DNA from: Parafrankia discariae
Lineage (GTDB): Bacteria > Actinomycetota > Actinomycetes > Frankiales > Frankiaceae
Reading direction: 5' to 3'
Assembly: GCF_000373365.1 (NCBI RefSeq)
Contig: NZ_KB891181.1
Location: 1 to 64,000, forward strand
DNA: 64,000 nt
Shown piece by piece: positions 2,842 to 12,851 of the stretch. The notes beneath the pieces are model-generated. The model saw only the letters and a list, made by a program, of their open reading frames with translations. It was not told the origin of the DNA and searched no databases. A program made the translations under genes and the position numbers. How positions within the stretch are numbered: the first letter of the stretch is position 1; each line of letters begins with the position of its first letter.

Positions 2842-3133
2842 CCGAGGCGGTCCGCGCCTGCTCCCGGCTGGACAGCCGGGTCCGGCTCGCCTGGACGCAT
2901 CGTACGGAGAATCGTCCGTCGAGCGGTCTCGCTCCCGGTTTCGCTCTCGCGCGCGCCGTCGCCGTTCGGCACGGCGCTGTTTCTGTCACCGCCGTGCCCG
3001 TTCGCGGGTGGTTCGTCGCCGCGTGGAGGGCCCCCGCGCCTGCCCCCGGACGCGTCCCGGGTCCGCGGCCCGTCGCCCGCCCCGGCCACAGCCTGGTTCA
3101 AAACAGTGACGCGTGTAATTCGTGGGAGCCGCT

Positions 3134-3934
3134 GTGCAGGTAGAAAAGAGCAAGTACCCGATGGACGCCTCTGACGAGCCGCGGTGGGACGAGTTCGATC
3201 CCGGTGCCTACCACGCGCACAACTACGCCGTCCTGCGTGACGACGACCGGGAGATTCTCGAGGGCGTGCGGGAGTTCTTCGCCACCCGGGCGGCGGCCGC
3301 GGCCGCCGCCCGTTCACTGCGTGGGCTGGACGTGGGCACCGGCAGCAACCTCTACCCGGCGCTGTCGATGCTGCCCTGGTGCGATCGGATAACCCTGTGG
3401 GAACGCTCCGCGAGTAACGTCGCGTGGCTGAAGGAGGAGATCCGGTCCTACAGCTCCACCTGGGACCCCTTCTGGAAGGTGTTGACCCGCGAACCCGCCT
3501 ACAGCGGCGTGGCCGACCCGCGCCGGGTGCTGGCGGACCGGGCGACGGTCGAGCGGGGAAGCGTCTTCGACCTGCCCAGGTCCCAGTGGGACATCGGCAC
3601 GATGTTCTTCGTCGCCTGTTCCATCTCGGGCCACATGGCGGATTTCCGTCGGGCCTCCGACTGCTTCCTGAAGGCGCTGGTACCCGGTGCGCCGTTCGCA
3701 ATGGCTTATATGGAGAAATCCAGCGGATACCAGGTCGGGAACATTCGTTTCCCGGCGGTTTCGGTGGCGATGGACGATATTGTCGCCAGTCTCGACGGAA
3801 CGGCGACGGATCTGAAGGCCGACCGGTTCGTCGGCACCGAGAAGCTACGCGAGGGATACGCGAGCATGGTCCTCGTCCGCGGCCGTACCAGAAAGTGGGA
3901 ACCGGCCGCCTCAGTCGCGACCGCAGGCGCCTAG
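3134..3934 (+). CDS. SCO2525-family SAM-dependent methyltransferase
   Basis: Putative class I methyltransferase of the NNMT/PNMT/TEMT-like type, about 266 aa. The SAM-binding loop LDVGTGSNLYPALS sits near residues 65-78, an acidic strand end (LWERS) follows, and the N-terminus has the family-like segment W-EFDPGAYHAHNY. The GTG at 3134 is preferred because GGGAG lies just upstream; GTG 3122 and ATG 3161 are alternatives. It is the first gene of a five-gene block whose order matches the SCO2525-to-SCO2521 families of Streptomyces, known only as conserved families without assigned function. The methyl acceptor is unknown. A small-molecule or protein target would both be compatible. Confidence 0.75.
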   Translation: MQVEKSKYPMDASDEPRWDEFDPGAYHAHNYAVLRDDDREILEGVREFFATRAAAAAAARSLRGLDVGTGSNLYPALSMLPWCDRITLWERSASNVAWLKEEIRSYSSTWDPFWKVLTREPAYSGVADPRRVLADRATVERGSVFDLPRSQWDIGTMFFVACSISGHMADFRRASDCFLKALVPGAPFAMAYMEKSSGYQVGNIRFPAVSVAMDDIVASLDGTATDLKADRFVGTEKLREGYASMVLVRGRTRKWEPAASVATAGA

Positions 3935-3965
3935 CGGCCCGGGAACGGGAAGAAGGTAGACGGCG

Positions 3966-5798
3966 TTGGATATCCGTCCGAGGCAACTTCTGCTGGAGAT
4001 GTGGGAGTCGGCCGTCGAGTACTCGTACCCGAGCGGCGAGTGGAAGTTCGGCGGCCGGGCCGAGTCGAACTCGACCAGTGACGCCGAGCAGCTTCTCTGT
4101 CTCATGTATCCGTCGTACCAGATGACCGGCATGGAGATCGTAAAGCCGGACGAGACGGCCAAGGATGTCCGTGACGCGCTGAAGCGGATCGGCGACGCCC
4201 GGCAGATCCCGCAGATCATGGTGCAGACCCTCGGTGAGTATTTCGGCCGGTACACGAACGAGCGGAAGGCCCCGGTTTTCGCCGGCGGCTCCTACTTCCA
4301 GTCGGCCGGGCCGGACGAGACACCGACCCCCGAGCAGCAGGCGCTGGAGATCGTCGACTCCTTCTCGATGTCCATCACGCTGTCGCTCGCCGTTCTCGGC
4401 TTCGTCCGGGAGTTCCGGTCGACCGTTCGGCGTGACGCGCTGCTGGCCGAGATGCTGGAGCTGGAGAGGGCCGCGTCGCGCCGGCTGACCGCGTCGATGG
4501 TGGGACTGCTGCGCTGCTTCACCGTGCGGACCTTCACTCCTTATTCAGAGGAGGGCCGGGCGCTGTGCGACCTGGTCAACACGGAGCAAAAAGCGACCGA
4601 GAAGGTGCTCGACGAGCTCCGTGACGCGCTCGTGCCCGCCCGTACCTCGCTGCGTGAGCTGAAGCTCGGCGTGGAACTGGCGGCCGACGTCGTGGAGGAC
4701 GACGGTGTGCTGTTCGAGTGCGGCTGGTCCTGGGGCATCATCCGGGAGGCGCCGCCGGTCGAACTGGAATCGAACGTCGACGTCTACCAGGCTCCGGGCG
4801 TCGCGCTGGCGAAACCGTCCCTGTATTTCACCGTCGTCGCGCTCGACGGTATCGCGGACCTCTTCTCGGAACGCACCCGGAGGCTCGGCCTGATCAACCC
4901 GGACCAGGAGAGCCTGGTGGGCGCGTTGCAGCTGCGCTCGAATCTGGCCCGCATCTACTGGAGCACCATCGCGCGTCTCGGCCGGGGCCGCTGGCCCGTC
5001 GAGGAGGTTCCCTGGCGGGGCGCGGATCCCGCCGAGGAAGGGCCGGAGACGGACTACGACACGCTGCTGGCCGCCTCGATCACGATCGAGGCGCTGGCCA
5101 GCGAGCGAGCTCGGGACGTCGACATCGCGCGGATCGGGGAGGTACTGGCGGAGCTGGCCGTGCGCGGCCGGGTCACCAGACGGGCCAGGCAGCGCGAGCC
5201 CGCGATCGGGCTGCACGTCCCGGGCGTGCGGCTGGTGCTCACCGGAGCCGAGGACCTCGGGCCGCCCCTGGTGTGGCCGGTGGCGGACTTCTCGACCGCG
5301 CTGCTCAAGCGGGTGGCGCGGGCCGCGTCCATCACCCGCGACAGTGCTCTGCGGGACCGGCTGGTCGCCCTGGCGGACGAGATCTGGAAACGTCACGTGC
5401 GGCTCCGTCAGCTCGCCGACCCCCCGGGCGCCGGGCTGTGGGACGACACCAGCCTCCTGAACGTGCCGCCGACGGACAAGGGGCCGTCGTGGTACTTCAC
5501 CGAACGGGTGATGGAGGCGCTCGTCACGGTCGCGGCGCTCACCGACCGGCGCCCGTACAGTCCCACGCTGGCCGAGCTGGCGCTGGACATGCTCGCGGAG
5601 GCCGACCACCTGCACATGACCGAGCTGCTGCGGGAGTCACCGACAGCCGCCCTCCCGGCCCGCACCCAGCTGCACGGCATCGGGGCGAACCTGCGGCGAG
5701 CCCGGGAGCTGCGTGAACGGCAGCCGGCGACGTCGATCTCGATCGTGCAGGCGGCGTTGCGCGATCTCGACGCGCTCGCCGTGGCCCGGCAGGCCTGA
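3966..5798 (+). CDS. SCO2524-family protein
   Basis: A 610-aa soluble protein of unknown function with no signal peptide or membrane segment seen. It is mostly alpha-helical by composition, rich in Leu, Ala, Arg and Glu, with few cysteines and no recognisable catalytic motif. It starts at a TTG codon (3966), with AGAAGGTAGA upstream; no ATG or GTG fits the N-terminal sequence MDIRPRQLLLEMWE better. The family name is inferred from position: it lies between the methyltransferase and the variant P-loop ATPase, as SCO2524 does in Streptomyces. It could be a scaffold or a sensing component. The function stays open. Confidence 0.6.
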   Translation: MDIRPRQLLLEMWESAVEYSYPSGEWKFGGRAESNSTSDAEQLLCLMYPSYQMTGMEIVKPDETAKDVRDALKRIGDARQIPQIMVQTLGEYFGRYTNERKAPVFAGGSYFQSAGPDETPTPEQQALEIVDSFSMSITLSLAVLGFVREFRSTVRRDALLAEMLELERAASRRLTASMVGLLRCFTVRTFTPYSEEGRALCDLVNTEQKATEKVLDELRDALVPARTSLRELKLGVELAADVVEDDGVLFECGWSWGIIREAPPVELESNVDVYQAPGVALAKPSLYFTVVALDGIADLFSERTRRLGLINPDQESLVGALQLRSNLARIYWSTIARLGRGRWPVEEVPWRGADPAEEGPETDYDTLLAASITIEALASERARDVDIARIGEVLAELAVRGRVTRRARQREPAIGLHVPGVRLVLTGAEDLGPPLVWPVADFSTALLKRVARAASITRDSALRDRLVALADEIWKRHVRLRQLADPPGAGLWDDTSLLNVPPTDKGPSWYFTERVMEALVTVAALTDRRPYSPTLAELALDMLAEADHLHMTELLRESPTAALPARTQLHGIGANLRRARELRERQPATSISIVQAALRDLDALAVARQA

Positions 5799-11300: not shown

Positions 11301-12851
11301 ATGGCCAGGTCCTTTTCCGAATCCGAGCTGGGTGAACTGGCGAGGGTCTACCACCGGAAGCTTTCCGCCACATCACTGTTGGCGCGCGCGGGTATCGACC
11401 GCGAGAGTCAGCCCAGCTGGGACAGCCACACCTCCCGGGACTTCTGGTGGGAGGTGGGCGAGGAGGTGGCGTCGGGACGAGGCGGGCCGGACGCCGCTGA
11501 CCGCGTCCTGGCCTTCGCGGCCGAGGAGTATCCCGGTAACGACGTCTTCCGCCGGTCGGCCGGCGGCCCGTCGCACGGCTCCCCGGCTCCGGCTTCGGTC
11601 CCAGCCCCGGCTTCGGCCGCGGCCGGGAGCGCCGCCGCTGTGCCGGGCGTCTCTGTCGGGGGTGGCCGGGCCGCCGAGCCCTTCGGGAGATCCGGCCCGT
11701 CCGGCTCGGCCGCTCCGGTCTCCGTCCTGGGGACGATCGTCGTGGTCGACGCGGTGGGCTTCAGCAGGAACGGTGCGCTCGTGCATCTGGAGTGGCGCAA
11801 GGGCATCAGCGCCGTCACCGCCCAGGCGGCGGCCGCCGTCCGTATCCCGGCGGACTCCATGTACTTCAACGACCGCGGTGACGGATTCATGATGATCGTC
11901 GAAGGTCGGGTACCCGCCGAGGCGGTGGTCGCCGACTTCACCCGGGAGCTGCGGATCGCCCTCGGCGAGTACAACCGCACCCGCAACAGCGTCGGACGGA
12001 TCCGGCTGCGCGTCGCCGTGCATGAGGGCCGGGCGTTCGTGGACGGCACCGGCCTCGCCGGCACCCCCGCGATCGTCACGGCGAGGCTGGTCGACGCGAA
12101 AGAGCTGCGCGGCGTCCTCGGAAAGGCCGACGGCCCGGATACCGCCCTGATCGTCTCGGACGCGATCTACCAGTCGACGGTCGCCGAGCGGCTGCGCGGG
12201 CTGGACCCGGACGACTTCGTGCGGGTCGAGGTCGACATGGAGAAGTACCAGGGCGTCGCGTGGATCGCGGGACGCGAGAACGCCGACACGGCCGACACGG
12301 CCGGCGCGGCCGGTTCGGGGGAGGAGGCCCGTACGGTGGCGGCCGAACAGCTGCCGGTGCCCGAGCCGGCGACCGGCAGGTGGGATTTCCTGATCTCGTG
12401 CACGGAGGCCGACGTGGACTGGGGCCAGTGGATCGCCCACCAGCTCCAGGTCGCCGACTACAAGGTGCACCTGGACGCCCTCGACATGGTGGCGGGCACG
12501 GGCCGCGTCGCGGAGTGGCACGACGCGGTCCAGTACTCGACCCGGACGATCGCCGTGCTGAGCGAGAGCTACCTGACCGCGGCGCGGAAGATCCAGTCCC
12601 AGTGGCAGGCGGCCTGGGAGAGCGACGGCACCGGCGCCGGCGAGGGCGGGGTGGAGCGCAGGCTGATCCCGGTGGTGGTCCGGCCGTGCAGCCCGGGTGG
12701 TCTGCTCGGGGGCATCACCCCCATCGACCTGATCAGCCGCCTGGACGACCGGGAGGTCGCCCGCGAGTACCTGCTGGAGGAGATCGAGGCCACGTTGACC
12801 GGGCGGCGCAGGCGGTCGGCCACCGCACCCCCGTTCCCGGGAAGGAGCTGA
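11301..12851 (+). CDS. EAD1 - nucleotidyl cyclase-like - TIR domain fusion protein
   Basis: A 516-aa three-domain protein. Residues about 3-85 (ESELGELARVYHRKLSATSL, then DFWWEV and AEEYPGNDVF) match effector-associated domain 1, a death-like adaptor of actinobacterial conflict systems. Residues about 145-330 form a class III nucleotidyl-cyclase-like domain with both metal-binding aspartates (VVVDAVGFS and RGDGFM). Residues about 360-505 form a TIR domain (WDFLISCTEADVDWGQWIA, LDMVAGTG, IAVLSESYL); a clear catalytic Glu of NADase TIRs is not obvious around KIQSQWQAAW. A Pro/Ala-Gly linker joins the first two domains. Family knowledge: EADs recruit partners by like-like contact and TIRs deplete NAD or make signalling nucleotides. 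A regulated immune or signalling role is inferred. Confidence 0.75.
   Translation: MARSFSESELGELARVYHRKLSATSLLARAGIDRESQPSWDSHTSRDFWWEVGEEVASGRGGPDAADRVLAFAAEEYPGNDVFRRSAGGPSHGSPAPASVPAPASAAAGSAAAVPGVSVGGGRAAEPFGRSGPSGSAAPVSVLGTIVVVDAVGFSRNGALVHLEWRKGISAVTAQAAAAVRIPADSMYFNDRGDGFMMIVEGRVPAEAVVADFTRELRIALGEYNRTRNSVGRIRLRVAVHEGRAFVDGTGLAGTPAIVTARLVDAKELRGVLGKADGPDTALIVSDAIYQSTVAERLRGLDPDDFVRVEVDMEKYQGVAWIAGRENADTADTAGAAGSGEEARTVAAEQLPVPEPATGRWDFLISCTEADVDWGQWIAHQLQVADYKVHLDALDMVAGTGRVAEWHDAVQYSTRTIAVLSESYLTAARKIQSQWQAAWESDGTGAGEGGVERRLIPVVVRPCSPGGLLGGITPIDLISRLDDREVAREYLLEEIEATLTGRRRRSATAPPFPGRS

Follow-up and report, generated by a model that had tools for sequence, protein, structure and literature searches.

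Effector-associated domain (EAD) systems form a large class of networks in multicellular bacteria, for which a role in immunity or cell death has been proposed mainly from sequence analysis. The closest described relatives of the protein studied here, which is encoded in a 64,000-nucleotide stretch of Parafrankia discariae DNA (the window), are the EAD-coupled NTP-dependent conflict systems of Kaur et al. (PMC7159879, 2020; PMC8195603, 2021). According to the main-text passages of these papers, such systems share with our locus the combination of EAD1 with nucleotide-signal domains (cNMP cyclase, TIR), a VMAP core in the same genome and the occurrence of inactive cyclases. The largest number of EAD1 proteins in these passages, 22, is that of Frankia inefficax. 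Signalling proteins that combine an EAD with a cyclase or a TIR domain, inactive ones included, are already a known kind of protein. The triple fusion in the fixed order EAD1-cyclase-TIR, the alternating active sites, the PPPFPG tail and the absence of the TIR at syntenic loci were not found in these main-text passages, and an earlier listing of the architecture may exist.

The Pycsar system (PycC and PycTIR) also associates a class III-type cyclase with a TIR domain. Unlike Pycsar, the window protein is a single chain, its TIR catalytic Glu is absent and it has no cyclic-nucleotide-binding domain. PycC is absent among the PDB profile matches to E=0.1 and PADLOC gives no Pycsar match for the protein, membership of Pycsar was therefore rejected. 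None of the PycC specificity residues (PMC11224242) was recognised in the window cyclase. Among the neighbours of the gene there is no separate adjacent effector with a cyclic-nucleotide-binding domain and an active TIR or TM, and no TIR-partner effector gene is recognisable in the immediate neighbourhood. Thoeris and other TIR NADases share the TIR fold, but the catalytic Glu is missing in the window protein.

The nearest solved cyclase by profile is Ma1120 (PDB 4wp9, 5d0g), which also lacks the canonical Asn (Ala there). It is a stand-alone domain with a wild-type Lys/Asp specificity pair, whereas the window protein has Asn/Gly. For the TIR, a profile of window-type domains finds the animal adaptor MyD88 (PDB 4dom) as its best match in the PDB (2.9e-11); where the window protein has its Gln, MyD88 has Gln as well. 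MyD88 carries a Death domain instead of EAD1-cyclase, and the parallel is one of functional analogy, not descent.

The EAD1 domain scores 54.9 bits against a Pfam cut-off of 24.2, and the TIR region matches TIR_2 at residues 363–485 (Table 1). The protein thus has EAD1 fused to signalling domains, as is characteristic of EAD1-associated proteins. The middle domain has no Pfam match, the protein has no match in NCBIfam, and PADLOC returns only weak matches confined to the TIR region. A profile of the middle domain built from 19 relatives matches class III cyclases in the PDB (Ma1120 E=1.7e-7, 3mr7 1.2e-5). The AlphaFold model, with 28 homologues as input, has a mean pLDDT of 77, with the cyclase mostly at 86–96, EAD1 high, the TIR moderate to high and the linkers low. 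Foldseek matches this model to the cyclases 3et6, 1wc1 and 4wp9, with E values between 4e-7 and 5.5e-6, and to the TIR domain 4w8g at E 1.7e-5. The Pfam, profile and fold searches agree on the three domains that the original prediction had placed in this chain. The orthologue in a second genome of the genus (G003), 80% identical, retains the full architecture and the Gln at the Glu column, which rules out chance or a sequencing artefact. The EAD1-cyclase-TIR triple fusion is real.

Table 1. Features of the EAD1-cyclase-TIR gene and of the partner operon (window positions unless another locus is given)
Feature	Position	Strand	Evidence
EAD1-cyclase-TIR protein gene, 516 aa	11301..12851	+	ORF beginning with ATG, GGGGGAG run (SD-like) directly upstream; G003 orthologue 80% identical
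All-helical adaptor domain EAD1, aa 6-87	11316..11561	+	PF19955 E=1.2e-14; genome search 5.0e-15; AlphaFold helices 7-87
Disordered Ala/Ser/Pro-rich linker, aa 88-139	11562..11717	+	pLDDT <50 over 90-137; fast-evolving, NG dN/dS 1.8 vs orthologue
Class III nucleotide cyclase-like domain, aa ~140-335	11718..12305	+	Profile vs PDB Ma1120 E=1.7e-7; Foldseek 3et6/1wc1/4wp9
D150, first metal-binding Asp	11748..11750	+	Alignment
N190, in place of the purine-specifying Lys; most relatives have Gln	11868..11870	+	Alignment
D194, second metal-binding Asp, NDRGDG motif	11880..11882	+	Alignment
I258, at canonical transition-state Asn position (R-4)	12072..12074	+	Alignment; Ala in Ma1120
R262, catalytic Arg, invariant across family	12084..12086	+	Alignment
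TIR domain, aa ~360-500	12378..12800	+	PF13676 E=8.6e-19; MyD88 nearest in PDB to the TIR profile; Foldseek 4w8g
Q434, at TIR catalytic Glu position, helix alpha-C	12600..12602	+	Alignments; AlphaFold secondary structure
C-terminal PPFPG tail motif, aa 510-514	12828..12842	+	Recurrence among family vs background ORFs
VMAP ternary operon, EAD2-EAD1 adaptor gene in front	L089 7887-16084 (G000 contig C2)		

The middle domain has the class III fold, the two metal-binding Asp residues (D150, D194) and the transition-state Arg (R262). The transition-state Asn is replaced by I258 and the purine-specifying Lys/Asp pair by N190 and G251. We do not take the missing Asn as excluding class III membership, since it is equally absent from Ma1120. 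This solved mycobacterial protein is an active adenylyl cyclase, as its PDB title also indicates. With the Asn and the purine-specifying residues absent, the window cyclase may be weak or act on another substrate; the base of the predicted cyclic nucleotide is not predictable from the Asn/Gly pair. In the TIR domain, helix alpha-C spans residues 432–443 of the AlphaFold model, and the column of the catalytic Glu falls within it at Q434. The original prediction was thus right about both metal Asp residues and about the lack of a clear TIR catalytic Glu.

We surveyed 35 Frankiaceae genomes and classed 32 TIR-bearing cyclase chains by their cyclase metal site and TIR Glu. EAD1 proteins whose cyclase site is intact are present in 27 of the 35 genomes, among them 26/27 of those in genera g1, g5 and g6. 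The g5 relatives are Frankia: a search with the g5 alignment matched Frankia gtarii, F. tisae, Frankia sp. QA3 and F. torreyi, and a search of the named genomes with the window protein alone gave no match. In 19 of the 32 chains an intact metal site accompanies a TIR without Glu (A, S, V, G or Q), and in eight the metal site is broken, the equivalent of D194 being G, A, T or P, and the TIR retains its Glu. Both active sites survive in only two chains (L010, L013), and neither does in three (L023, L030, L031). The Glu is therefore absent from 22 of 32 cyclase-fused TIR domains, and it is present in 21 of 22 sampled TIRs of the same genomes that are fused to neither EAD1 nor cyclase. The metal site and the Arg are intact in nearly all EAD1-cyclases without a Glu-bearing TIR. 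A poor alignment was considered as the source of the reciprocal pattern and rejected, because a separate TIR profile, which also spans the 22 TIRs fused to neither domain, confirmed the Glu column. Parsimony on the tree gives about two changes for each trait, too few independent pairs for reciprocal loss to stand as a statistical law, and that claim was rejected as unproven. The pattern is strong as a description and carries no independent-contrast result.

Other domain arrangements occur in the survey. Three EAD1-TIR proteins without a cyclase (L142 757-1710, L143, L144) have Glu-less TIRs (Q, H, V) that resemble the cyclase-fused ones, and in genome G005 EAD1-cyclase and EAD1-TIR are encoded as separate genes. 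The order cyclase-EAD1-TIR is found in G014 (L016 3155-4513, the same protein as L078 5393-6823) and in G010 (L019, reverse strand, 3073-4428), in both cases in tandem and directly downstream of an EAD1-cyclase-TIR gene. The G014 protein has the canonical Asn and is possibly a heterodimer partner.

The cyclase is the constant part of the family. No TIR accompanies it in 12 of the 13 g5 genomes (Frankia) or in G005, at the syntenic counterpart of the window gene, whereas the corresponding genes of the window genome (G000) and G003 have the TIR. In the cyclase tree the TIR-less EAD1-cyclases of the 12 g5 genomes are sister to the intact-cyclase, Glu-less-TIR chain of genome G013, and in the 11 g5 genomes tested the TIR-less gene sits in the slot of the G013 gene, flanked by the same neighbours. 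The 12 genomes carry a second TIR paralogue elsewhere, with the cyclase broken in 11. A PPFPG-type tail is found at the C-terminus of 26/27 EAD1-cyclase-TIRs, 12/14 EAD1-cyclases and 3/2537 background ORFs. The TIR-less g5 proteins still end in PPPFPG, the tail located after the TIR in fused chains, which makes loss of the TIR the likelier direction. Some EAD1-TIR and TIR-only proteins carry a PP[FY]PG tail too, and the motif may be a short docking motif.

The Glu-less TIR is under purifying selection. In a comparison of the window gene with the G003 orthologue, which also has Gln at the Glu column, NG dN/dS is 0.44 for EAD1, 0.49 for the cyclase, 0.37 for the TIR and 1.8 and 4.1 for the linkers, values that are crude at the GC content of these genes. 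This implies that the domain is retained for a role different from NAD cleavage through that residue. A residual pseudogene was rejected on the same domain-level selection and on the conservation of the architecture at 80% identity.

The window genome has seven places with EAD1, six besides the window gene. On contig C2 a 265-aa EAD2-EAD1 adaptor gene lies directly upstream of an EAD2-VMAP-M0-VMAP-C gene, in an operon that also contains a gene for a MoxR-like AAA protein and one whose 1554-aa product has NB-ARC, TPRs and a weak vWA-like match. This operon fits the VMAP ternary system as it is described in the main text of Kaur et al. (PMC7159879), and the genome thus holds a core system with a matching EAD. 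The link to proposed EAD1 immune systems drawn in the original prediction holds, and the check it suggested, for an EAD1 partner elsewhere in the genome, gave the six other places, this adaptor included. Similar adaptors adjoin VMAP-C genes in many relatives. VMAP-C is absent from 8 of the 27 genomes with an intact EAD1-cyclase, and G013 has a window-type protein with no other EAD1, no VMAP-C and no core system of this kind, so the link to VMAP cannot be obligatory. Two EAD1-STAND NTPase-TPR proteins of the window genome (L092 9132-11873 and L093) are further possible EAD1 partners.

Ordinary genes flank the window gene, coding for GNAT, Zincin_1, FHA and Rieske proteins and for a hypothetical protein, and the neighbourhood is syntenic in three genomes of the genus; a position in a defence island is not supported. 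Stand-alone relatives of the cyclase in other Actinomycetes (L162 6173-11810, L164 1073-6815, L165 6022-11596, L167 1501-6768) lie in a different setting, a conserved run of genes for the cyclase (~230-325 aa), a STAND-like protein of ~680-770 aa with weak nSTAND3 matches, a ~330-410 aa protein without assignment and DUF4407 (E 1e-47 to 1e-65). At L162 a gene for a CRP-type cNMP-binding regulator lies just upstream.

The explanation we prefer, to which we give about an even chance, is that the window protein makes a cyclic nucleotide when recruited through EAD1, and that its TIR serves as a non-enzymatic, MyD88-like assembly module. EAD1 would dock the protein on other EAD1 proteins by homotypic contact, in G000 most probably on the EAD2-EAD1 adaptor encoded beside the EAD2-VMAP/AAA/weak-vWA-NB-ARC-TPR operon. 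The resulting crowding, aided by TIR-TIR contacts, would pair the cyclase domains, which are active only as dimers, and so switch on synthesis of a cyclic nucleotide that would act on separate effectors; the TIR itself would have no NADase activity. Such homotypic contacts would connect the window protein to VMAP by a concrete, though inferred, route.

Several observations point to a signal maker. The cyclase metal site and Arg are intact here and in nearly all EAD1-cyclases without a Glu-bearing TIR, the Glu is lost from most cyclase-fused TIRs and kept by nearly all those fused to neither domain, and at syntenic loci (G005 against G000 and G003; 11 g5 genomes against G013) the TIR is absent and the cyclase kept. 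An adaptor and an EAD2-VMAP-C operon are present in the genome, with similar pairing in relatives, and EAD coupling of this type is proposed in the main text of Kaur et al. (PMC7159879). That the TIR is a scaffold is suggested by the constraint on it (0.37) and by MyD88, with its Gln, being the nearest sequence in the PDB. The chains that keep both sites (L010, L013) and those that keep neither (L023, L030, L031) count against the signal-maker explanation.

The reciprocal pattern may also be read as a division of labour, in which an ancestral chain had both enzymes and the lineages kept one each, the window protein being the signal half. In g5 the EAD1-cyclase would then make the signal, and the EAD1-pseudocyclase-TIR paralogue would receive it, or dimerise with the cyclase, and cleave NAD+. 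All 12 g5 genomes with a second TIR chain (its cyclase broken in 11) do carry a separate intact EAD1-cyclase, G013 having instead its one intact-cyclase, Glu-less chain, and the eight broken-cyclase chains keep the TIR Glu. However, with about two changes per trait on the tree the reciprocity is not statistically independent, there are the five chains with neither site or both, and no Glu-bearing EAD1-TIR was found among the EAD1 places examined in the window genome. We consider this division unlikely, if quite conceivable. The related proposal is equally doubtful that this is an immune-type family in which a fused cyclase and TIR NADase were inactivated alternately, the Frankia halves forming an EAD1 relay where a pseudo-cyclase, rather than a CNBD, would sense a cyclic nucleotide or an active cyclase and bring about NAD+ loss. 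It is rather improbable that the cyclase too is catalytically dead, binding nucleotide only, and that the whole protein is a scaffold. The absence of the transition-state Asn and of the purine-specifying Lys/Asp is consistent with this, as are the inactive cyclases in vWA-fused positions noted in the main text of Kaur et al. (PMC7159879). Retention of the metal Asp residues and the Arg in nearly all EAD1-cyclases without a Glu-bearing TIR is unexpected of a dead enzyme, though, Ma1120 likewise lacks the Asn, and one stand-alone relative adjoins the CRP-type cNMP-binding gene.

The original prediction held that one chain might both make and read a signal, with a TIR that either consumes NAD or senses nucleotides. 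The idea of making and reading in one chain does not hold: the TIR has Q434 and is readily dispensed with, only two of the 32 chains keep both sites, and nothing found shows nucleotide sensing by the window TIR. A self-contained Pycsar-like protein, whose own cyclase product activates NAD+ cleavage by its own TIR, is very improbable for the same reasons. Pycsar does pair a cyclase with a TIR effector (PMC11224242), here the two share a chain, and L010 and L013 show that both sites can be kept. Against this stand the Gln in place of the Glu, the loss of that Glu in 22 of the 32 chains, the TIR being sometimes wholly absent and the failure to find a cyclic-nucleotide-binding domain in the window protein. 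There are acidic residues near the site in the window TIR, and one of these, for example E440 later in the helix, might substitute for the Glu in an NADase or base-exchange enzyme. This is scarcely probable, as the family alignment shows no conservation of E440 and the Glu column has the diversity of replacements (A, S, V, G, Q) that relaxed catalytic constraint would produce.

The EAD1-cyclase family is a compact member of the EAD systems, present in 26/27 genomes of three Frankia-type genera (g1, g5, g6). Our preferred explanation of the window protein, a signal maker with a scaffolding TIR, predicts that the cyclase is the output of window-type proteins, that their TIR is a scaffold and that NADase activity resides on a paralogue. 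If this is true, the family would offer a parallel to animal TIR adaptors such as MyD88 inside a bacterial second-messenger system, and its cyclase-TIR logic would be distinct from that of Pycsar.
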